A stretch of 64,000 nucleotides of DNA from assembly GCF_900155475.1 (NCBI RefSeq), contig NZ_FXAM01000001.1, positions 793,501-857,500 of the forward strand, read 5' to 3'. Positions 24,735-34,691 of this stretch are shown here, piece after piece. Numbering within the stretch: position 1 is the stretch's first letter; every line of letters begins with the position of its first letter. The translations under genes and the position numbers were made by a program. The notes under the pieces were generated by a model, which saw nothing but the letters and a program-made list of their open reading frames with translations, did no database searches and was not told the DNA's origin. Source of the stretch: Methylomagnum ishizawai (GTDB lineage: Bacteria > Pseudomonadota > Gammaproteobacteria > Methylococcales > Methylococcaceae).

Positions 24735-25688
24735 TTATTCGGTCGGCGGTTCCTGGCCGGGTGGGGCCGGGGTCAGCGACATGAGGAATTCGGCCACCGA
24801 TTGCGGGCGCTGTTCCGGGTGGATTTCCATGGCCCAATCGATGGCTTCCAGCCAGATCGGGGAATAGCGCCGCCGGTACGCCTTCGCCGCCGGGACCAGG
24901 ATGTCGCGCTCGGCCCGCTCGGGGGCGGAGGGCGGGAACGTCCCGTCCAGGCACATCCGCATGGTGGCCCCGAGCGCATACAGATCGCTCCAAGGGCCGA
25001 GCATCCCGTCCTGGTCGTATTGCTCGATGGGCGAGAAGCCATTGCTCAACACCTTGCCGATGCGGCTGCGCTCTTCGTAGGGGTAGGGCTGGCAAGCGCC
25101 GAAATCCAGCAGCAAGGGATCGCCGCCGGAACGGATCAGGATGTTGTGGGGCTTGATATCCAGGTGGAGGAGACCGTTGTTGTGGATGGTGCGCACCCCG
25201 TCCAACAGCGGCAGGAATACCATGGTCAGGAATTGCTCGCTCACCCCGCCTTTTTTTTCCTTCAGCAGATAATCGCCCAAGACCTTGCCGTACTCGAAGG
25301 TCATCACCAGATAGACGGTGGCATTGGCGCGGAAGAAGTTCAGCACCTCGACGATGTTGCGGTGCTTGAGCCGGGTCAGCACCTTGGCCTCTTCCAGGAA
25401 CAACTGGCGGCCGCGGATGAAGGCGCGGCGGGCGTCCTCGGTGACGGGGACGACTTCGAGCTGGCCGTTGCGGTGGGCGAGGCGGCGCGGCAGGTATTCC
25501 TTGATGGCGACCTGGGTTTGGTCCTCGGACTGGCGGGCCAGGTAGACCGAGCTGAAACCGCCGCCGGCCAAGGGGCGTTCGATGATGTACTGGTCGATCA
25601 GTGTGCCGGGTTCCAGGAAATAGGACGCCGCCCGTGGTTCCGTTGGCTCCGGTTTCCCTTCTGTCGTGCCGAACAATGGTTTTCTCAT
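24735..25688 (-). CDS. Serine/threonine protein kinase (Hanks type)
   Basis: A 317-residue eukaryotic-like kinase domain: glycine loop LAGGGFSSVYLA, ATP-binding Lys in VAIKEYL, catalytic loop HLDIKPHNIL (HRD replaced by HLD), metal-binding DFGA, and the P+1 region GFSPIEQYDQ. There is no C-terminal membrane helix or PASTA repeat, so it is probably cytoplasmic. The start at 25688 (MRKPLFGTT) is one of two nearby ATGs. It is divergent from yicC, with 53 bp between start codons. Substrate unknown; rsd lies downstream on the same strand after a 240-bp gap. Confidence 0.85.
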   Translation of the reverse strand: MRKPLFGTTEGKPEPTEPRAASYFLEPGTLIDQYIIERPLAGGGFSSVYLARQSEDQTQVAIKEYLPRRLAHRNGQLEVVPVTEDARRAFIRGRQLFLEEAKVLTRLKHRNIVEVLNFFRANATVYLVMTFEYGKVLGDYLLKEKKGGVSEQFLTMVFLPLLDGVRTIHNNGLLHLDIKPHNILIRSGGDPLLLDFGACQPYPYEERSRIGKVLSNGFSPIEQYDQDGMLGPWSDLYALGATMRMCLDGTFPPSAPERAERDILVPAAKAYRRRYSPIWLEAIDWAMEIHPEQRPQSVAEFLMSLTPAPPGQEPPTE

Positions 25689-25741
25689 GGGCGGATTTCG
25701 GCTTACCATCAATGCTTTCAATCCGCGAAGTATAAACAACA

Positions 25742-26611
25742 ATGACACACAGCATGACGGCTTTTGCCGGGGCCGAACGCGAGGTCCAGGGTTGGCGCTT
25801 TGCCTGGGAACTGCGCTCGGTCAACCACCGCTATCTCGATGTCGCCCTTAGGCTGCCGGACGCCTTGCGTTTTCTGGAGCCCGAGGCCCGCAACCGCATC
25901 GCCGGGCGGATCAAGCGGGGCCGGGTCGATGCCACCCTGTCCTGGAAGAAGACCGAACAGGGCGAGGCGGCGATCCACGTCAACCGCGCCCTGGTGGCGC
26001 AATTGCTGGCGGCGGCCCGCGAGGTGGAGGCATTGGGCGGTGCCGCCTTGGCCGGCTTCAACGCCTTCGAGGTGCTGAAATGGCCTGGCGCCCTGCATGA
26101 ACCCGAGGCCGACCGCGAGGCGCTGGCGGCGGCGGTGTTGGACCTCCTGGCCGAAGCCTTGGACAAGATGGTGGCGGGGCGCGGGGCCGAGGGCCGTTTG
26201 CTGGCCGGGTTCATCGAGGAGCGCTGCTTGAAGATGAAGGAGCAGGTCGGCGCGGCGCGGGTGCGCTTGCCGGAGGTGTTGCAGGCTATGCGGCAGAAGG
26301 TGGTGGCGCGGCTACAGGAGGTCGCCGCCAATCCCGACGCCGACCGGCTGGAACAGGAATTGGTGTATCTGGCGCAGAAGCTGGACGTGGCCGAGGAACT
26401 GGATCGGCTGGGGGCGCATATCGACGAGGTGCTGCGGACTTTGAAGCAGAAGGAGCCGGTCGGGCGGCGGCTGGATTTCCTGCTGCAAGAACTCAACCGC
26501 GAGGCCAATACCCTGGGCTCGAAATCGGCGGATGCCGAAACCACCCGCGCCTCGGTGGAGATGAAGGTGTTGATCGAGCAGATGCGGGAACAGATACAAA
26601 ACATTGAATAG
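25742..26611 (+). CDS. yicC: YicC/YloC-family endoribonuclease
   Basis: A 289-residue YicC-family protein, a conserved bacterial endoribonuclease. The family N-terminus MTHSMTAFAGAER, the ELRSVNHRYLDVALRLP segment and the C-terminal ELNREANTLGSKSAD and MKVLIEQMREQIQNIE blocks are all visible. No clear ribosome site precedes the ATG; TATAAA lies 6 bp upstream. Its downstream terminator hairpin has been used as the attachment site of an integrative element. Confidence 0.92.
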   Translation: MTHSMTAFAGAEREVQGWRFAWELRSVNHRYLDVALRLPDALRFLEPEARNRIAGRIKRGRVDATLSWKKTEQGEAAIHVNRALVAQLLAAAREVEALGGAALAGFNAFEVLKWPGALHEPEADREALAAAVLDLLAEALDKMVAGRGAEGRLLAGFIEERCLKMKEQVGAARVRLPEVLQAMRQKVVARLQEVAANPDADRLEQELVYLAQKLDVAEELDRLGAHIDEVLRTLKQKEPVGRRLDFLLQELNREANTLGSKSADAETTRASVEMKVLIEQMREQIQNIE

Positions 26612-26650
26612 CCTTCCACCCCATTTCATGCCATTCCACTTTTCCCCCGG

Positions 26651-26672
26651 AAGCCGCTAACCACGCGGCTTT
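26651..26672 (+). other. Left attachment repeat, coincident with yicC terminator hairpin
   Basis: A 22-bp sequence starting AAGCCGC and ending GCGGCTTT is repeated exactly at 31969-31990. It is a hairpin (7-bp stem, loop TAACCAC) 40 bp after the yicC stop. In this copy the T-tract is broken (TTTCTTC), whereas the right copy runs into T7, consistent with a crossover inside the terminator. Upstream, a CATTTCA-GCCATT motif is also shared by both ends. Confidence 0.75.
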
Positions 26673-26720
26673 CTTCATGCCATACTGTTTCAGGACATTT
26701 CACCGCATTCCGCTTTGAGC

Positions 26721-26772
26721 GTGTACCCAACCGTGTACCCAAGCGGATTGGGTACATATTTTTTGGGTACAC
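26721..26772. promoter_or_regulatory. GTGTACCCA cluster upstream of integrase
   Basis: Four copies of a GTGTACCCA-type motif lie between the left attachment repeat and the integrase ATG: two direct (26721-26729, 26733-26741) and two inverted (TTGGGTACA near 26748 and TGGGTACAC at 26764-26772). Two more sit near the other end of the element. Integrase or excisionase arm-type sites that may also autoregulate the int promoter are the natural reading. Confidence 0.6.
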
Positions 26773-26787
26773 ACCCAAGGGGGCGCT

Positions 26788-28050
26788 ATGGGCAAGCTGA
26801 CCGACGTGGAAATCCGTAATTGGATCAAGGCCGGGGAACGGTTCGATATGCGGAGCATCGGCGATGGGCTTTATCTCCGGTATCGCGAAGCGGACGCCGT
26901 TCCCCTCTGGCGGTTCCGCTACCGCATCGGCGGGAAGCAACGGGTGATGAACCTGGGAGGCTATGGCGACCTATCCCTAGCCGATGCCAGGAAGACCGCC
27001 AAGGAACTCAGGGCGCGTGTCGCCTTGGGCCATGACGTGGCCGCAGAGAAGCAGGAACGCAAGGCGGAAGCCGTCGCCAAGATGGAAGCCGGGAAGAACG
27101 CTTTGACCGTGGCGAAGCTATCCGATGAATACTTTGAACGCATGATCCTGGGGCGCTGGAAACATCCCAACATCGTGCGGAGCCGGATCGAGAAGGACAT
27201 CAAGCCGAGCATCGGCAAGTTGAAGGTCGAGGATGTGAAGCCCTCCCACATAGACGCGATGCTCCAAACCATCGTCAAGCGCGGCGCTCCCACCATCGCG
27301 AACGATGTACTGCGGTGGGCGCGGCGCATATTCGATTACGGCATCAAGCGCCACATGCTGCAATACAATCCGGCGTCTGCGTTCGACCTGTCCGATGCGG
27401 GCGGCAGGGAGGAAGCGCGGGAACGGGCGCTGTCCGGGGATGAACTGGTGTTGTTGTTCCAGGCCATGCGCGACGCCAAGGGTTTCAGCTATGAAAACCT
27501 GCTGGCCGTGAAGCTGTTGCTGCTGCTGGCTGTGCGGAAGGGCGAACTGGTCGGGGCGCGGTGGGCCGAATTCAACCTTGACCAAGCCGTCTGGTGTCTG
27601 CCAGCCGAGCGCACGAAAACCGAAGCGGCCATCGATATTCCCTTGCCGGTCCCGGCTGTGGACGCCTTGCGCGAGTTGCACCGGCTGGCGTGCGGTTCCG
27701 AGTGGGTATTTCCGGCGCGGAAGGTCCAACACCGGATGATTCCGCATATCCACGAAAATACCTTGAACGTCGCGCTTTCCAAGGTGAAGCCGCTTATGCC
27801 CGGCGTGGAACCCTTCTGCGTCCATGATTTCCGGCGCACGGCCCGTACCCACTTGGCGGCGCTTGGCGTCGATCCGCATATCGCCGAACGGTGCTTGAAC
27901 CACAAAATCAAGGGTGTTGAGGGCATCTATAACCGGCACGATTATTTCGAGGAACGCCGGAAAGCCTTGGAGCTTTGGGCGAAGTATCTCGAATCGTGCG
28001 AGAAGGGGGAGGGCTGGAATGTGGTGCCATTCCGGCGCTCAATGGGGTGA
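26788..28050 (+). CDS. P4-type tyrosine integrase
   Basis: A 420-residue integrase with an N-terminal DUF4102-like arm-binding domain (SIGDGLYLRYREADA, then GKQRVMNLGGYGDLSLADAR), a core-binding domain (about 105-200) and a catalytic domain. Catalytic residues are present: Arg in LAVRKGE, Lys in ERTKTE, HDFRRTA (HxxR), His in LNHK and Tyr in GIYNRHDY. It appears intact and would recombine the 22-bp repeats flanking this element. Confidence 0.93.
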   Translation: MGKLTDVEIRNWIKAGERFDMRSIGDGLYLRYREADAVPLWRFRYRIGGKQRVMNLGGYGDLSLADARKTAKELRARVALGHDVAAEKQERKAEAVAKMEAGKNALTVAKLSDEYFERMILGRWKHPNIVRSRIEKDIKPSIGKLKVEDVKPSHIDAMLQTIVKRGAPTIANDVLRWARRIFDYGIKRHMLQYNPASAFDLSDAGGREEARERALSGDELVLLFQAMRDAKGFSYENLLAVKLLLLLAVRKGELVGARWAEFNLDQAVWCLPAERTKTEAAIDIPLPVPAVDALRELHRLACGSEWVFPARKVQHRMIPHIHENTLNVALSKVKPLMPGVEPFCVHDFRRTARTHLAALGVDPHIAERCLNHKIKGVEGIYNRHDYFEERRKALELWAKYLESCEKGEGWNVVPFRRSMG

Positions 28051-28721
28051 AAACCGATTCCACGGTTCTACCCTCATTCCAATCAGAACCGGAAACCCTT
28101 GATTGGCGCGGGTTCCGGCGGGTGGGCGTTTTTAGATGCCCCCAAAAATGCCCCCCGTTTTGGATTTCAGCCTATTCCATGCCGTATCATCCCCGCTCAT
28201 TTTCCCCGAATTGCCGCGCCTAGCCTTTGGCCGGGCGAAAACCGGGCACCCTTCACCCGGCGGGCGCGGCTCCTGAACCTTGGGTGGCTGGCCCGAAAAG
28301 GGTGGTCGTGGGCGATGCCCTGGCCGGAACCAAGGCGGGTGGCTGGGTGGCTGGCCCGGACAGCGGGGATAGCCGCCCCCCCACCCCCCCCGCGCACCCC
28401 GCACCCCCCATTCACCCGGCCCACGCCGAGAATCTTGAATTTTTTTCAAGCCCGGCCCGGCTGTCGCGCCGGAGGGTTGGTTTCCGGGGTTTGCCCTCCT
28501 GGTGCCAGGACCGGCCCCGTACCCAAGGACCAAGCCCGGCGGTCTCCCCCTCCTGGAGCTTGGGGCGGGTTTCCCTCCATCCCATGCCACGCCGTGCCAT
28601 GGCGTATCATTGCCGCCCAGTCCGAATGGCCGCGCCCAGCCTTTGGCCGGGCAAACCACGGGATACCCTTCACCCGTTGGGCGCGGCCCCCATCTCGAAG
28701 GGCAAGCCCGAAGGGGGCCAT
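28051..28721. repeat. GC-rich non-coding stretch with a 95-bp imperfect direct repeat
   Basis: About 670 bp with no convincing gene: open frames here are Pro/Gly/Arg-rich shadows on both strands. A segment of about 95 bp at 28177-28270 recurs at 28597-28687, sharing CGTATCAT, CAGCCTTTGGCCGGGC-like and CCCTTCACCCG blocks. Between them are shorter internal repeats (GGGTGGCTGG units near 28280-28350) and a C-rich run. Role unknown; this may be decayed sequence assembled by repeat expansion. Confidence 0.5.
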
Positions 28722-29303
28722 GTGGAAATCAAAGATAAAACCGCCCAATATTGGTCCGCCCCCAGGCACAACGATTTCGATGAACGGCTTGCCGTATTTT
28801 TGATATGCGATTTTGAGCCGGGAGAAAGATTGGATGGCGGCGAGAAAATCATATTTGAAAGAGAGCGGGACCAATTAAAAAGGACGGTTTACCCTGCCTT
28901 TAGCGATGCGATTGACTTTCATGTCAAATCCGAAGGATATAGGTATAAAGCGCAAGAGTTAAGTTATTCCAGAAAGCAGATTGAAGAGTATTGAGAAAAA
29001 AGAGGGATTAGACCGAAATTTTTATTATCAAGCACAAGAATAGAGAAATTAAATCCAATTCAATCACCGCTCAAAGGAAGGAAAAAAATCGAAACAAATT
29101 TTGAAGAGCTTACTTGCCTAAATATAATTGGCGCAATGCTTGAAATTATAAAGGGAGAAATGCCAAAGCCAGGTGCCAAAGAAAGCAGTGCCTTTAAAAG
29201 TGAAGCCGAGCTTATAAGATTTATCGAAGACAAATATAAAGGCATACACGGGCTATCCAAGGCATCACTTGAAAGGGTTTTTGCCATGGCAAAAAAGAGC
29301 TTA
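28722..29303 (+). pseudogene. Degraded hypothetical mobile-element gene, nonsense codon and IS insertion
   Basis: A GTG start (28722) with AGGGGG upstream opens a frame beginning VEIKDKTAQYWSAP. It stops at TGA (28992-28994) but continues in the same frame as EKRGIRPKFLL and later NIIGAMLEIIKGEMPKPG and SKASLERVFAMAKKSL. The context EEY-stop-EKRGIRP suggests a Trp TGG mutated to TGA. The C-terminal pattern recalls small hypothetical proteins found near integrases. The IS630 element begins right after the last of these codons. Base composition is clearly more AT-rich than its surroundings, pointing to transfer. Confidence 0.55.
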
Positions 29304-30494
29304 CTCCCTTCCCGGCCTAAGACCACCCACTTTTTGGCAGGCGGTAGATATGCCTGAGGATGTTTTTGATCTGCTGGGGCGTTTGCGGAGGGGCCTGGGC
29401 CAAGTGCCGACGGACACGCTCGGCCCGCTGCTGGACGGTCATGGCGTGGGGCAGGTGGTAGAGGGAGTTCTTCCTGACGAGGTGGATGAGGTATTTGGCC
29501 GGGTTGAACTTGGGGGAGTAGGCCGGGGTGTGGAGGAAGTCCACGGCGATGCCCTGGGCCAGGGCGATTTCCGCCAGCAGGTCTGCCAGCGCGGCCTTCA
29601 TGGAGTCGTTGTGGATGGAGCAGTTGTCGAGGATGAACAGGATGTGGCGGAAGCCCAGGCGGGCATATCGCAGGACGATCAGGGCGATGACGTAGACGGC
29701 GTTGCCGGTTTTGGCCTGGGGCTGGAAGTCCACGGTGGTCCGGCCACTGTTCAGGTCCAGGGCCAGGAAGCCGTTCAGTTTCTCCCGCCGCTTCTCGTTG
29801 CTCGGCGGCGCCGGGGCGGTGTTCTTCTCCGCCCAGGCATAATGGGTGCCGGTCGTGGACAGCAGGGCGAACTCGTCGAGGGCTACAAGGGCGGTGTCGG
29901 TTCCGGCCTCGGCGGTTTTTTTTCGAGATCCTTCACGAAGCTGGCCCGCTCGGCGGGCTTGGCGGGGCCGTAGTCGCGGTGGGCGCGCTGGAGGGAGAGA
30001 CCCAGTTCGTCGAAGATTTCGTAAAGCCGGTTGGCGCTCAGCGACAGGCCCCATTTCTTGCTGAGCAAGTCCTGGACGTGGACCGCCGTCCATTGGTAGC
30101 TGTCGATGCCATAGTCCGCCGGCGCCTTGTGGAGCAGGATGTAGCGCAGAACCTTGCGCCGCTGCGGGTTCAGGGTTTGCGGGCGGGGCCGCCTTTGCGG
30201 GGCCAGCAGGGCGTCGAAGCCGCCATGAAGGTAGCTGTCCAGCCACTTCTCCAGCGTCTTGCGCTGGACTCCCTGGCTGCGGCAGACCTCGGCCATGCTC
30301 TCGCCGTCCCACAGGGACCTCAAGGCCAGCAGCCTACGCCGCCGGCTCTGCTGCTGGTGGCGGTAGAACAGCGCCTGCCACCGTTCGCGGTCCTGCGGGG
30401 CCAGCCGTTGGATGCGGATAGAGCGGTTCATCTTGCCTTTCCCGGTCTAGTTCCATTGCCTAGAAGCTTAGCCGTTCTTTAGGCGGGAAGGGAG
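29304..30494 (-). mobile_element. IS630-family insertion sequence, 1191 bp
   Basis: Ends are inverted repeats: CTCCCTTCCCG at the left and its complement CGGGAAGGGAG at the right, extending imperfectly with a one-base gap (GCCTAAG against CCTAAAG). A TA dinucleotide flanks both sides (29302-29303 and 30495-30496), matching the TA target duplication of IS630/Tc1-type elements. It carries one transposase gene split into two frames. The element sits between two broken genes inside the integrative element. Confidence 0.85.
29317..30431 (-). CDS. IS630-family transposase, two frames joined at an A8 slippery run
   Basis: The upstream frame (30431 to 29883) starts MNRSIRIQRLAP and carries helix-turn-helix regions (ESMAEVCRSQGVQRKTLEKWL). 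The downstream frame holds the DDE domain and ends at 29317. They join at eight A residues on the coding strand (29916-29923), where a -1 shift gives KKTAEAG, so programmed frameshifting is likely. Catalytic Asp residues are seen in ALDEFALL and ILDNCSIH. At the third position, where the family has NPxE, this copy reads FNPAKYLI, Lys in place of Glu, so it may be inactive unless complemented. Confidence 0.8.
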
Positions 30495-30496
30495 TA

Positions 30497-31405
30497 GCCG
30501 GAGATTTTGACGTGCCAGGAGAAACAGCGCGTCAATGGCTATTAAAGCCAAACCCACATGGCACGCCAAACAGCGAGATATTGCGCCCATTACGCAACGG
30601 AAACGACATTCTAAAAATCAACAAAGACAGATGGGTAATTGACTTTGGGACATCCACCGAAGAATTAGAAGCGGCTTTTTTTGAGCTTCCTTTTTAATAT
30701 CTTTTAAAACATGTCAAACCCAAAAGGGAAATAAATAGAGAAGCTATTCGAGTACAAAAATGGTGGCGACTTGGGAGGCCAAGACCGGAATTGAGAAAGT
30801 CTTTGATTGGCTTAGATCGTTATATTGCTACAGTCGAGACAGCTAAGCATAGAGTCTTTTTCTGGCTTCCCGTCATAATCGCCTCTGAACACAAGCTTAT
30901 AGTGATTCCTAGGCAAGATGAAACAACCTTTGGAGTATTATCTTCCCGGTTCCACGTTATTTGGGCTATTACCTCTGGTGGAAGGCTTGGAGTAGGGAAT
31001 GATCCTGTCTATAACTCAACTCGATGCTTTGAAACCTTCCCCTTCCCCGAAGGCGTCTTAACCCACGAAAACCCGGACACCGCTTTTCCCGCCATCGCCG
31101 AAGCCGCCCAGCGCTTGCACGAATTGCGGGAAAACTGGCTCAACCCGCCCGAATGGACCGAGCGCGTGCCGGAAGTGGTGCCGGGCTATCCCGACCGCAT
31201 CCTCCCCAAGCCGGGCCACGCAGCCGACCTGAAAAAGCGCACCCTGACCCACCTCTACAACACCCGCCCCGCTTGGCTGGATAACGCCCATAAAGCCTTG
31301 GATCAAGCCGTGGCCGCTGCCTACGGCTGGACCGACTACACGGAGGCCATGTCCGACGCGGAAATCCTGGGGCGGCTCTTGAAACTCAACCTGGAACGGG
31401 CGTGA
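30497..31405 (+). pseudogene. C-terminal remnant of class I SAM-dependent DNA methyltransferase
   Basis: One frame runs from the IS border to 31405 with a single TAA at 30695-30697. It reads GDFDVPGETARQWLLKPNP, then DRWVIDFG, FFELPF-stop-YLLKHVKP, WWRLGRPRPELR, a TRD-like stretch (RYIATVETAKHRVFFWLP, GVGNDPVYNSTRCFETFPFPEG), and ends LLKLNLERA. This is the target-recognition and C-terminal part of large single-chain DNA methyltransferases of the MmeI/type IIG-like kind. The catalytic NPPY half is missing. The stop is one base change from GAA (PFEYLLKH). The gene is dead. Confidence 0.75.
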
Positions 31406-31968
31406 GGGGGCGGAACTGGACGGGCCGGTTCCGCGCTTCACCGGGGCCGGGCGTGGCTTGGGCCGTGTCTTGAAAAGTAAACCTTGCGGGACGTTCCGAA
31501 ACCATGTCTTAAAACATGTCTTCTTGGGAAGTTCCCGAATCCTTTAAAACGATTCGAGACACCAGTCCGGCCTTTCGGTTCGATCCGGCCCACGGCCAGC
31601 ACCAGCACCAACCCGGCCCGTTGATCCGGGGCCGGGCTTCCTGGGACAGTGCCAGGGCGCGGCCACGGCCACGGCCACGGCCTCCCGCCCCGAACTTTCC
31701 CGCCCGGCACCAGCCCGACCTTGCCCGCTCTTGATCCGGGGCCGGATTTCCTGGGACTGCACCAGGACGCGGCCTTGCTGCCGATGAATTACCCCCACCA
31801 TCCCGGCCTAAATTTTCCGCACCGGGCTTTTCGCGTGTACCCATATGTGTACCCGTGGAAAAGGCACAGTAAAACAATCCATTTGTAATCAGTGATTTAA
31901 GTCGTCACTCTAGGTTCAGATACGAGTGACATTTCAGGCCATTTCACAACGTCCCGCTAATCCTCTGA
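31406..31968. other. Non-coding right end of the integrative element
   Basis: No convincing gene. It contains a 44-bp imperfect direct repeat (31621-31664 and 31731-31774, both starting TTGATCCGGGGCCGG), a short tandem run of GGCCAC near 31661-31683, and a small hairpin CGAATC with GATTCG near 31530. Two GTGTACCC motifs occur at 31835-31843 and 31847-31854, matching the cluster next to the integrase. A CATTTCA-GCCATT motif just before the right attachment repeat matches the left flank. Confidence 0.5.
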
Positions 31969-31990
31969 AAGCCGCTAACCACGCGGCTTT
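31969..31990 (+). other. Right attachment repeat of the integrative element
   Basis: An exact second copy of the 22-bp AAGCCGC...GCGGCTTT repeat at 26651-26672. Here the hairpin is followed by an uninterrupted T-run, which is probably the original end of the yicC terminator. The distance between repeats gives an element of about 5.3 kb. Confidence 0.75.
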
Positions 31991-32450
31991 TTTTATGTCT
32001 TGACGGTACGCGGGGTCGCCCAATGGCCGCGCACCACCACCGCCAAGGCTTCCGGCAAACCCGCCAATACGATGAACCGGGGTGTTCCTGGCCGAACGCC
32101 TGGAGTCTGGCGGAAAACCCATTTTTCTAGGGGAAAGGTCGATATGCCGCATGGACCGGGTTGATCTTTTGTGAAAATCTTCTATACCTCTACATTGTCC
32201 ATGATAAATCCATGGCTTTTTCTGCGGATTGATCTGCCTATAGGGAAAAGGCGCAGTATTGCTTGAGCTTTATATGAGTATGTTGAATGGGTAAACAAAA
32301 GACGAAATTGGCTGCGGCGATGGCATTTTCTGCTGCTTTGGTATGAATGCTAAAAACTCGGATTAAACCCTGATAAAACCAAGATATAGTTTATCTGATC
32401 AATGGCGGGAGAATGGCGATCCCAGTCAATCGATTAATTATTTACAGGAA
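31991..32450. other. Intergenic region with truncated signal-peptide-like ORF
   Basis: About 460 bp of mixed composition, AT-rich after 32160. At 32288 a 19-codon frame encodes MGKQKTKLAAAMAFSAALV and then stops. It looks like the signal peptide of an exported protein whose body has been lost or frameshifted. No intact gene or RNA family is recognised. Confidence 0.35.
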
Positions 32451-32702
32451 GTGGCGCAGCTTGTGTTTATGAATATTGCTCATGGTTTTTCTCGGTATTT
32501 TGTGGGTGGATATATCACGCCCACCAAAATCGAAGGAGTCCAGCACGGGGTGAATATGGCGAGCGGATGTTCCACGGAGATACTGACGATCATCACCGCT
32601 ACCAGCGCCTCTACCGTTGAGGTATCGATGAAGGGTTTGGATTCGAACGGTGACTTGGCGAAGGATTGGGTCGCCGTGGGTGTAGGCACTAGGGTCCGGT
32701 GA
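32451..32702 (+). CDS. Small hypothetical protein (83 aa)
   Basis: An 83-residue frame with a GTG start preceded by AGGA; an ATG six codons later (32469) is an alternative. The sequence is Thr/Ser/Val-rich and beta-like (TEILTIITATSASTVEVSMKGLD). No family is recognised. It may be a short secreted-type fragment linked to the signal-peptide-like ORF upstream. Confidence 0.4.
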   Translation: MAQLVFMNIAHGFSRYFVGGYITPTKIEGVQHGVNMASGCSTEILTIITATSASTVEVSMKGLDSNGDLAKDWVAVGVGTRVR

Positions 32703-32801
32703 TTTTATGGATTTGTCTCTATAATGTTGTGAGCCTATTTGGGCCCGTCAACAACGGCGATAACTGCTGGCGAGGGATTGCCCTCTTCCGGGATTTTGAA
32801 T

Positions 32802-34691
32802 ATGACGATCTATAAGAAAATGTTGCTACTGATAAGCTTCAGCTTATTGGGGTTGATCGGGCTGGCGGTCTTGGCGAACCACCAAATCCAACAAGTGTTC
32901 GTCGCGGCCAATTATGCCAACGTCAATAGCGTGCCTTCTTTGGTCGCCGTGAATTCGGCTATTAAAACATTCGGTCAGGTGCGGGTGCGCCTGTTCCGGC
33001 ATGTGCTCAACGAGGACCGGAGCAAGCAGGATCGATTGGATCAGGAGTTGAAAAGCGCCGAGAGCGATTTGGCGGCGGCCTTCACGGCGTATGAACCGTT
33101 GATCTCGAATGACGAGGATCGCCGCTTATACCAAGCTAATCTGGTGAAATGGAGCCAATATGAGGCCGGGATTGTCCCGGTACAGACTTTTTCCCAGAAC
33201 ATGGATAAAAAACAGGCCCGGGAAGCCCTTGACCGGTTGACCGATCCTGGTCGGGATTTGCAGAACAGCCTTGAGGCCCATGCCAAATACAATGCCGACC
33301 TGGCGGGGAAGGCCGCCGCCGACGCCGCGCAAATCCAAGCGGCCGCTGTGTGGCAAAGCTGGGGCGGGGCGTTGCTCACGGCGTTCCTGGTCGCCGGGGT
33401 CGGCTACTACATCGTTCGGACCGTGGTGCGTCAATTGGGTGGCGAGCCAGAAATGGCCGCCGCCATCGCCAACCGCATCGCCGAGGGCGATCTATCCATG
33501 CCCATTACCTTGAAGGCCGGCGATACCGACAGTTTGATGGCCGCCATGGCGCATATGTCCGCCAATATCAAGGCCCTGGTCGATGACGCGCTGAGGCTGT
33601 CCCAAGCCGGCATAGAGGGCCAACTCGCCGTCCGCACGGACGCCGCCAAGCACCGTGGCGACTACCGCAGGATCGTCGAAGGCGTGAACGCCACCCTCGA
33701 CGCCGTGGTCGGGCCGATGGAACGCATCCGCGAAGTCATGGGCCGCGTGGCCGGGGGCGACCTGACCGCCAGCGTCGATGGGGATTGCCGGGGCACTTTC
33801 CTGGATTTGCAGGAGGCGATCAATGCCAGCCTGCGCAAGTTGGCGGAAACCCTATCCGAGGTCAGCAACCTGGTGGGCACTTTGTCCAGCGCATCCGAAC
33901 AACTGAGCGCCACTTCCCAATCCCTGTCCCAGGCCGCTTCCGAGCAGGCCGCCAGCGTCGAGGAGACCTCTTCCTCCACCGAGCAGATGGCGGCCTCCAT
34001 CAACCAGAACAAGGACAATGCCAAGATCACCGACAACATCGCCGAGAAATCCTCCCGTGAGGCGGCGGAAGGCGGCGAGGCCGTCGCCCGGACCGTTCAG
34101 GCCATGAAGCAGATCGCCGGCAAGATCGGCATCATCGACGATATCGCCTACCAGACCAACCTGCTCGCCCTGAACGCCGCCATCGAAGCGGCCCGGGCCG
34201 GCGAGCATGGCAAGGGCTTCGCGGTGGTGGCCGCCGAGGTGCGGAAACTGGCCGAGCGTTCCCAGGTCGCCGCCCAGGAGATCGGTGAACTGGCCGCGTC
34301 CAGCGTCGGTATGGCCGAGCGGGCCGGGACGCTGCTGGGCGAGATCGTGCCCTCGATCAGGAAAACCGCCGGTTTGGTGCAGGAAATCGCCGCGGCCTCC
34401 GAGGAACAGGCGTCCGGCGCCAAGCAGATATCGGAAGCCATGAACCAACTGAGCCGGACCACCCAGCAGAATGCCTCGGCTTCCGAGGAACTGTCCGCCA
34501 CGGCGGAGGAGATGAGCGGGCAGGCCATGGAATTGCAGCGGACCCTGGGTTTCTTCAAAACCTCGGTGGTCGAGGACAAGGACCCTATGGTCCTGCGCCA
34601 CACGGCGAGGTCGGAACCCGTCCATCCCCAGGTCCGGCTGCGGGACGGTGCGAATCGGGGATGCGGCGAGCAGGGTTTCTCCCGCTTCTGA
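32802..34691 (+). CDS. Methyl-accepting chemotaxis protein
   Basis: A 629-residue receptor. N-terminal membrane helix ([19 protein letters not shown]), periplasmic four-helix-bundle ligand domain (about 30-185), second membrane helix ([16 protein letters not shown]), HAMP region beginning at [23 protein letters not shown], a further HAMP-like segment, and the cytoplasmic signalling domain with the hairpin tip [23 protein letters not shown]. It would report a periplasmic stimulus to CheA. The ATG at 32802 gives the correct N-in helix. No che genes are adjacent and no C-terminal NWETF tether is present. Confidence 0.93.

Follow-up and report, generated by a model that had tools for sequence, protein, structure and literature searches.

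A decayed yicC-specific integrative element in Methylomagnum ishizawai whose attachment core most likely lies in the last yicC codons rather than in a repeated terminator hairpin

The window analysed here, 64,000 nucleotides of Methylomagnum ishizawai contig NZ_FXAM01000001.1 (positions 793,501 to 857,500), contains, at the 3' end of yicC, a decayed integrative element whose tyrosine integrase belongs to the yicC-specific family. The element is about 5.3 kb long and real, in agreement with a first-pass annotation of the sequence, and relatives of its P4-type integrase occupy the same site in other genomes. That annotation had also taken a 22-bp hairpin, repeated near both ends, for the boundary and crossover site. 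Comparison with the relatives instead suggests that the core lies in yicC codons, that the element brings its own yicC ending and terminator, and that the right hairpin is a remnant of an older element. We assign this whole reading a probability of about 0.82. Comparison establishes the relatives' core position, their arm-to-core geometry, and the element-borne terminators of Escherichia coli elements and of a nifA-type gene, while the crossover point in the window itself, the terminator activity, the older element and the loss of mobility are put forward as likely. The window genome is referred to as G000, other genomes by G-numbers, and E. coli loci and relatives by L-numbers; coordinates of features are collected in Table 1.

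Pfam analysis of the window integrase, which lies beside the left hairpin copy, revealed the domains Arm-DNA-bind_3, Phage_int_M and Phage_integrase, and its open frame contains the R/H/R/H/Y motifs. One scan of genome contigs yielded 30 relatives whose best segments are 63–81% identical. They come from Methylocaldum, Gallionellaceae, Nitrosospira, Dechloromonas, Aromatoleum, Rubrivivax-type Burkholderiales, Dickeya, Pantoea, Buttiauxella and others, and span Gammaproteobacteria and Betaproteobacteria. All 30 lie at yicC-derived sites, and yicC is directly upstream in 29, at a distance from the integrase gene (int) of 171–241 nt in 27 of the 29; the other two distances are 95 nt (L045, incomplete, with Ns) and 555 nt (L040). 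The thirtieth, L049 from Erwinia psidii, is the second element of a tandem behind yicC on the same contig, where yicC occupies 124736-125596, the L049 int lies near 138492, and a first element with its own integrase lies between them. The left end of L049 adjoins a yicC-end core that is preceded by arm sites at distances of 81 and 69 bp, and the locus (L100/L049, G067:C5 124736-140456) can be read as a tandem of two yicC-specific elements. Insertion at the yicC 3' end with int beside the left attachment site (attL) is found in the window as in 29 of the 30 relatives.

Two side observations concern the integrase family. Both integrases of the Erwinia psidii tandem are about 67% identical to the window integrase. 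DNA 60–80% identical to the Dickeya yicC-type int gene is present in 541 of 5426 E. coli genomes, a count of sequence matches irrespective of insertion site.

Occupied E. coli loci with complete elements (L066, L067 and L068) were compared with the empty sites L072 and L073. At the empty site, the yicC 3' end is followed by CTCGTAAC and then by a native terminator-like hairpin. At the occupied sites, yicC with its 3' end is followed on the left by element DNA with a different hairpin, while on the right the yicC 3' end occurs once more, in shortened form in L067 and L068, and is followed by the native sequence and hairpin. The yicC 3' end shared between the two element ends amounts to 22 nt with 2 mismatches in L066 and to the 8 nt remaining in L067; the arm-site regions of the two ends also resemble each other. 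Within one element, the hairpins behind the two ends show no relationship, which excludes the hairpin as the core. What is duplicated, in the three E. coli loci as in eight further elements, is the end of the yicC reading frame; the eight are L049 and seven elements whose right ends were located by the yicC-end motif (L035, L039, L050, L051, L054, L056 and L058).

Right-end geometry was then used to place the core of the window. A GTAC arm lies 67–69 bp before the core in 11 of 11 other elements (L049 included), five of which are near-identical Burkholderiales-type ends and not independent, and the distance in the window is 68 bp. The L058 genome has a further candidate right end, L090, which was dropped from this count for having no arm site, and L039 has additional GTACs closer to the core than the 67-69-bp arm. 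In the window, CAGATAC at 31917, 68 bp past the arm, matches the yicC heptamer at 26591 and is followed by GAGTGA, a usual yicC ending, with 8 nt missing, so that the match between the two attachment sites is limited to 7 identical bp plus GAGTGA across an 8-nt gap. Applied to the window, the arm-to-core distance of the relatives thus puts the right core at 31917, a position 52 bp short of the right hairpin, and with the core at CAGATAC the left hairpin belongs to the element and the right hairpin lies outside it. By this comparison, the crossover lies most likely in the last yicC codons (CAGATAC) and not in the hairpin. Given these cores, the element extends from about 26591 to 31923, or 5326 bp core to core. 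All five GTGTACCC arm-type sites of the window are inside it (three left, two right), compared with a mean of 0.87 in shuffles, and 0 of 100 shuffles reached five.

A terminator-like hairpin after yicC was detected at 19 of 33 loci with an integrase and at 3 of 30 without, and mononucleotide shuffles under the same hairpin rule gave 0.15 and 0.20. L001 and L009 (duplicates) and L045 and L049 (no complete yicC end) were left out of the count, and an earlier scan (20/33 versus 3/30) was set aside for over-extended stems. Among the three hairpin loci without an integrase, L005 (G018) has an int remnant, L011 has an apparent element scar, and L013 has neither. In the relatives that pass the rule, the hairpin starts 34 to 49 nt past the yicC stop, with one at +29. 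Covariation was analyzed in 12 hairpins, those of the window and of 11 relatives chosen for a 7-nt loop (among them L040, a mispaired copy); the set does not extend to the enteric hairpins, the Burkholderiales-type ones and several more, and the covariation therefore holds for the chosen subset. Four of the nine stem pairs have changed on both sides, and paired cells reach 97.2%, versus 88.5% in shuffles and at most 67.6% when slid. The stem appears to be conserved as a structure more than as a sequence, which would suit a terminator better than a recombination core. Judged from these sequences, the left hairpin most likely terminates yicC transcripts and shields the co-directional int from them. 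The case as a whole indicates that yicC islands swap the terminator of the gene for their own.

Alternatively, the hairpin and its flanking 10-bp repeats could act in recombination, as binding sites for the integrase or an excision factor, with termination incidental. Such a role would suit the relatives, in which 10-bp repeats flank the hairpin left and right within the stretch from core to arm sites, as well as the poor T-runs of the Burkholderiales-type copies. The compensatory stem changes and the T-tails at 19 of 33 loci nevertheless fit an RNA terminator, and the nifA-type element described below has a hairpin that replaces another terminator-like hairpin of the sister species, making a purely recombinational role unlikely in our view.

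A second G000 integrase, 55–57% identical, lies behind a gene that appears from its sequence to be nifA-type (G000:C1:3772500-3792400, L101; int at 1888, right end at about 13618). This locus is laid out as at yicC, with the gene end followed by 10-bp repeats, a hairpin with a T-run, further repeats, arm sites and int. The empty nifA-type gene of G018 ends in the same residues, KRI, but encodes them by different codons and is followed by a different terminator-like hairpin, indicating that the nifA-type element replaced both codons and terminator. At its right end, the left-end module recurs over 150 nt, first arm site included, and may be read as the left end of an older element. The nifA-type element, a second member of the wider integrase family in G000, measures about 12 kb, and the G018 copy of the gene is without it.

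Since L035, where the right copy is followed by arm-like sites, and the nifA-type locus show such remnants, the right hairpin of the window is probably what an older element of this family left of its left-end module, and the two hairpins would be alike because the module is conserved rather than because it is a crossover repeat. Of 12 right ends, counting that of the window, nine lack a copy of the element's own hairpin module past the core, and the window, L035 and the tandem element L049 have one. The case indicates that a short hairpin module behind yicC can be the scar of an earlier island, a point of use in drawing the limits of such elements. The right hairpin could also be the host's own terminator, with the core still in yicC codons and the left module copied from a related host. 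The better T-tract of the right copy, the absence of a visible arm-type site past it, and the TTTCAC repeats after yicC in L006 and L008, which have no integrase and whose repeats could be native, speak for this origin. L006 and L008 are however without the hairpin, the module is absent from the right flanks in E. coli and in the Burkholderiales-type group, and both L035 and the nifA-type gene display older left ends complete with arm sites; we regard a native origin as improbable, about as much so as the recombinational role discussed above.

Related observations were made behind other yicC genes. L006, L008, L010, L016 and L020 have TTTCAC-like 10-bp repeats without a hairpin or integrase, perhaps scars of earlier elements. 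In L011 (G032), the first residues of an IntyicC-like protein are apparently fused to the end of another recombinase, possibly the scar of a lost element.

Several observations weigh against a core in yicC codons with an element-borne terminator. The longest exact repeat of the window ends is the 22-bp hairpin, compared with a core match of 7 bp and a gapped GAGTGA, and local alignment of the two ends settles on the hairpin region instead of the core; for E. coli L067 and L068, such an alignment picks out the arm regions and likewise misses the core. The hairpin rule fails at 14 of 33 element loci, seven of which form the Burkholderiales-type group, with bulged hairpins and poor T-runs, while some of the seven others have visible hairpins rejected by the rule (L040, L055, L067 and L068). 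The rule also misses the native E. coli terminator, whose loop exceeds 10 nt, so that the 3/30 undercounts native terminators. For covariation, the observed number of doubly changed pairs was reached by 12 of 500 shuffles and that of pair types by 16 of 500. Empty yicC sites, which the first-pass annotation had proposed seeking in related genomes, were found in E. coli (L072 and L073), and none was found in the genus, where the sole other genome examined, G018, carries a hairpin and int remnant behind a yicC whose protein is 99% identical to that of the window. Finally, the right flank differs between the species because of an apparent large rearrangement, so that the unoccupied attachment site (attB) of the window cannot be shown and the flank is no proof of an empty site. 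Concerning the older element in particular, the right module stops soon after the hairpin, with no arm-type site visible beyond.

The 22-bp repeat itself was confirmed, with copies of AAGCCGCTAACCACGCGGCTTT at 26651-26672 and 31969-31990. The pattern AAGCCGC-N7-GCGGCTTT occurs at only these two places in the whole of G000, a third match being the right copy on the opposite strand, and a chance repeat is rejected on this basis. Alignment extends the likeness of the ends to 66 nt at 76%, longer but weaker than the 22-bp repeat, taking in the 10-bp TTTCAC-type repeats 5' of the hairpin. The tails differ as had been noticed, with a broken T-tract at the left copy (TTTCTTCATG) and T7 at the right copy (TTTTTTTATG). 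A terminator scan of 25500-33000 listed the right copy and not the left; since it returned 5 sites versus a shuffle mean of 10.3, fewer than in shuffles, the scan alone proves nothing. Hairpins of other elements differ from the 22 nt of the window by 1 mismatch (L035), 2 (L037 and L057) or 3 (L034, L055 and L061), and equal hairpins therefore need not be attL and the right attachment site (attR) of one element. A crossover inside the hairpin, its 7-nt loop being the overlap and its stem arms the core sites, draws on the repeat being the longest exact one and on 7-8-bp inverted arms around 7 bp, which would suit a tyrosine recombinase core, and is rejected as very improbable on the evidence of the E. 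coli elements (integrases 63–65% identical, unrelated end hairpins, a common yicC 3' end), the nine right ends without the module, the compensatory stem changes between elements, and a distance of 120 bp from the right arm site to the hairpin versus 67–69 bp from arm to core in the 11 others. An island may thus be bounded by perfect copies of a terminator without these being its attachment site, and the hairpin boundary was a plausible misreading.

In the mechanism that we favour, with the core in yicC codons, the integrase would recombine the element's attachment site (attP) with the last codons of yicC at CAGATAC, a 7-bp overlap being inferred. Integration would deprive yicC of its original final codons and terminator. 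In their place the element would supply new codons and a stop, a 10-bp-repeat array, an intrinsic terminator, a second array, the arm-type sites and int. The new terminator would end yicC transcripts and keep them out of the co-directional int, and the right hairpin, beyond attR, would stem from the left end of a family member that had integrated earlier. The proposal that yicC was left with an altered terminator thus stands in so far as the left terminator differs from that at the right end; judging from the relatives, the difference would arise because the element brings its own, not through recombination splitting the hairpin. More speculatively, and with little weight, the left-end module may be a conserved switch, in which int is kept silent by the terminator as long as the element stays integrated, until a factor bound to the flanking repeats relieves this or opens recombination; the related nifA-type integrase shares the module, so that the family would replace the 3' ends of quite different genes.

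Published reports describe MGIVflInd1, MGIVmi1 and IEEcoMOD1 (IntyicC) as yicC-specific mobilizable genomic islands at the yicC 3' end (PMC8409611, PMC4344509, PMC5704250, PMC7449626). Because yicC is already published as a tyrosine-integrase target, the target is not unusual, contrary to what had been supposed; the window adds a further yicC-specific element to a known group of yicC-targeting integrases. Like the IntyicC islands, it has a tyrosine integrase and is integrated at the yicC 3' end; unlike them, it is 5.3 kb long, with wrecked cargo and no recognised rdfM/xis or mobilisation gene, and its host family is taken to be that of Methylocaldum. The Shewanella yicC islands GISpuPO1 and GISspANA3 are reported to have attachment sites of 21 bp, and they and the related GI21 resemble the window element in having the integrase at the left end; they are larger, their excision was demonstrated with a Xis, and GI21 lies within a composite island with restriction-modification and HipAB genes (PMC8978831). 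ICEKp1 is described as displacing a tRNA terminator, with terminator-like stem-loops before int (PMC13023037), and Tn916 as having an insulating terminator near one end (PMC11658703). The target of ICEKp1 is a tRNA gene, whereas the window element targets a protein-coding gene and would exchange its last codons as well. No published report of a terminator module in yicC islands was found in titles and abstract beginnings among the matches listed.

Table 1 Features of the yicC element and its surroundings (window coordinates unless stated otherwise)
Feature	Position	Strand	Remark
yicC (target gene)	25742..26611	+	Stop codon 26609-26611; N- and C-terminal YicC-like domains
Inferred attL core heptamer CAGATAC, within yicC	26591..26597	+	Counterpart of the E. 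coli duplicated core
Last yicC codons, inferred to be element-supplied	26598..26611	+	From relatives; nifA-type gene parallel
Three 10-bp repeats, TTCCAC/TTTCAT/TTCCAC type	26613..26642	+	Sequence; relatives laid out similarly
Left hairpin, inferred element-borne replacement terminator, broken T-tract	26649..26673	+	
Second array, three 10-bp repeats	26687..26716	+	Sequence; relatives
Three GTGTACCC arm-type sites	26721..26772	26721 +, 26733 +, 26765 -	
IntyicC-type tyrosine integrase, 420 aa, open frame	26788..28050	+	
IS630-type insertion, transposase in two overlapping frames, 21-nt inverted ends	29302..30496	-	Within AT-rich older cargo
MmeI-like restriction-modification enzyme fragment, C-terminal part	30791..31405	+	MmeI_TRD, MmeI_C
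Two GTGTACCC arm-type sites, right end	31835..31854	+	
Inferred attR core CAGATAC, then GAGTGA (yicC-like end, 8 nt shorter than attL)	31917..31923	+	
Right module outside the element: TTTCAC repeats, hairpin 31967-31991, T7 31988-31994	31930..31994	+	Probable older-element left end
Apparent large inversion, positions concerned	31990-32086; G018:C1 973856, 4214438; G000:C1 4079426, 4100653		

The DNA 3' of yicC carries a hydrolase-like gene and yebC in G018, and a methyl-accepting chemotaxis protein (MCP) gene in the window; flank gene names other than MCP are based on reading of translations. The MCP gene of G018 adjoins rpoD at 4.21 Mb. In G000, yebC lies at 4.08 Mb and rpoD at 4.10 Mb, with about 21 kb between them that starts with transposase-like open reading frames (ORFs). 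The difference in flanks would be explained by an apparent large inversion whose breakpoints lie at the yicC island and next to rpoD. Neither yebC nor ruvC was found near yicC in G005 and G008 (L070 and L071), which gave no pointer to the species with the ancestral gene order.

In nine ORFs no Pfam match of any kind passed a cut-off, so that no excision factor (rdfM/xis) was recognised, and no mobilisation domain was found among the proteins scanned, both scans covering part of the ORFs. Although its integrase frame is open, the element has probably lost the ability to move, given this lack of an identifiable excision factor and the shortening of its right core. The cargo 3' of int consists of AT-rich remnants, and its matches to MmeI_TRD and MmeI_C are both just above the Pfam cut-off. 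It is interrupted by the IS630-type insertion, in which each transposase half scores below the NCBIfam cut-off for a whole IS630 transposase; a transposase in two frames is common in the IS630 family.
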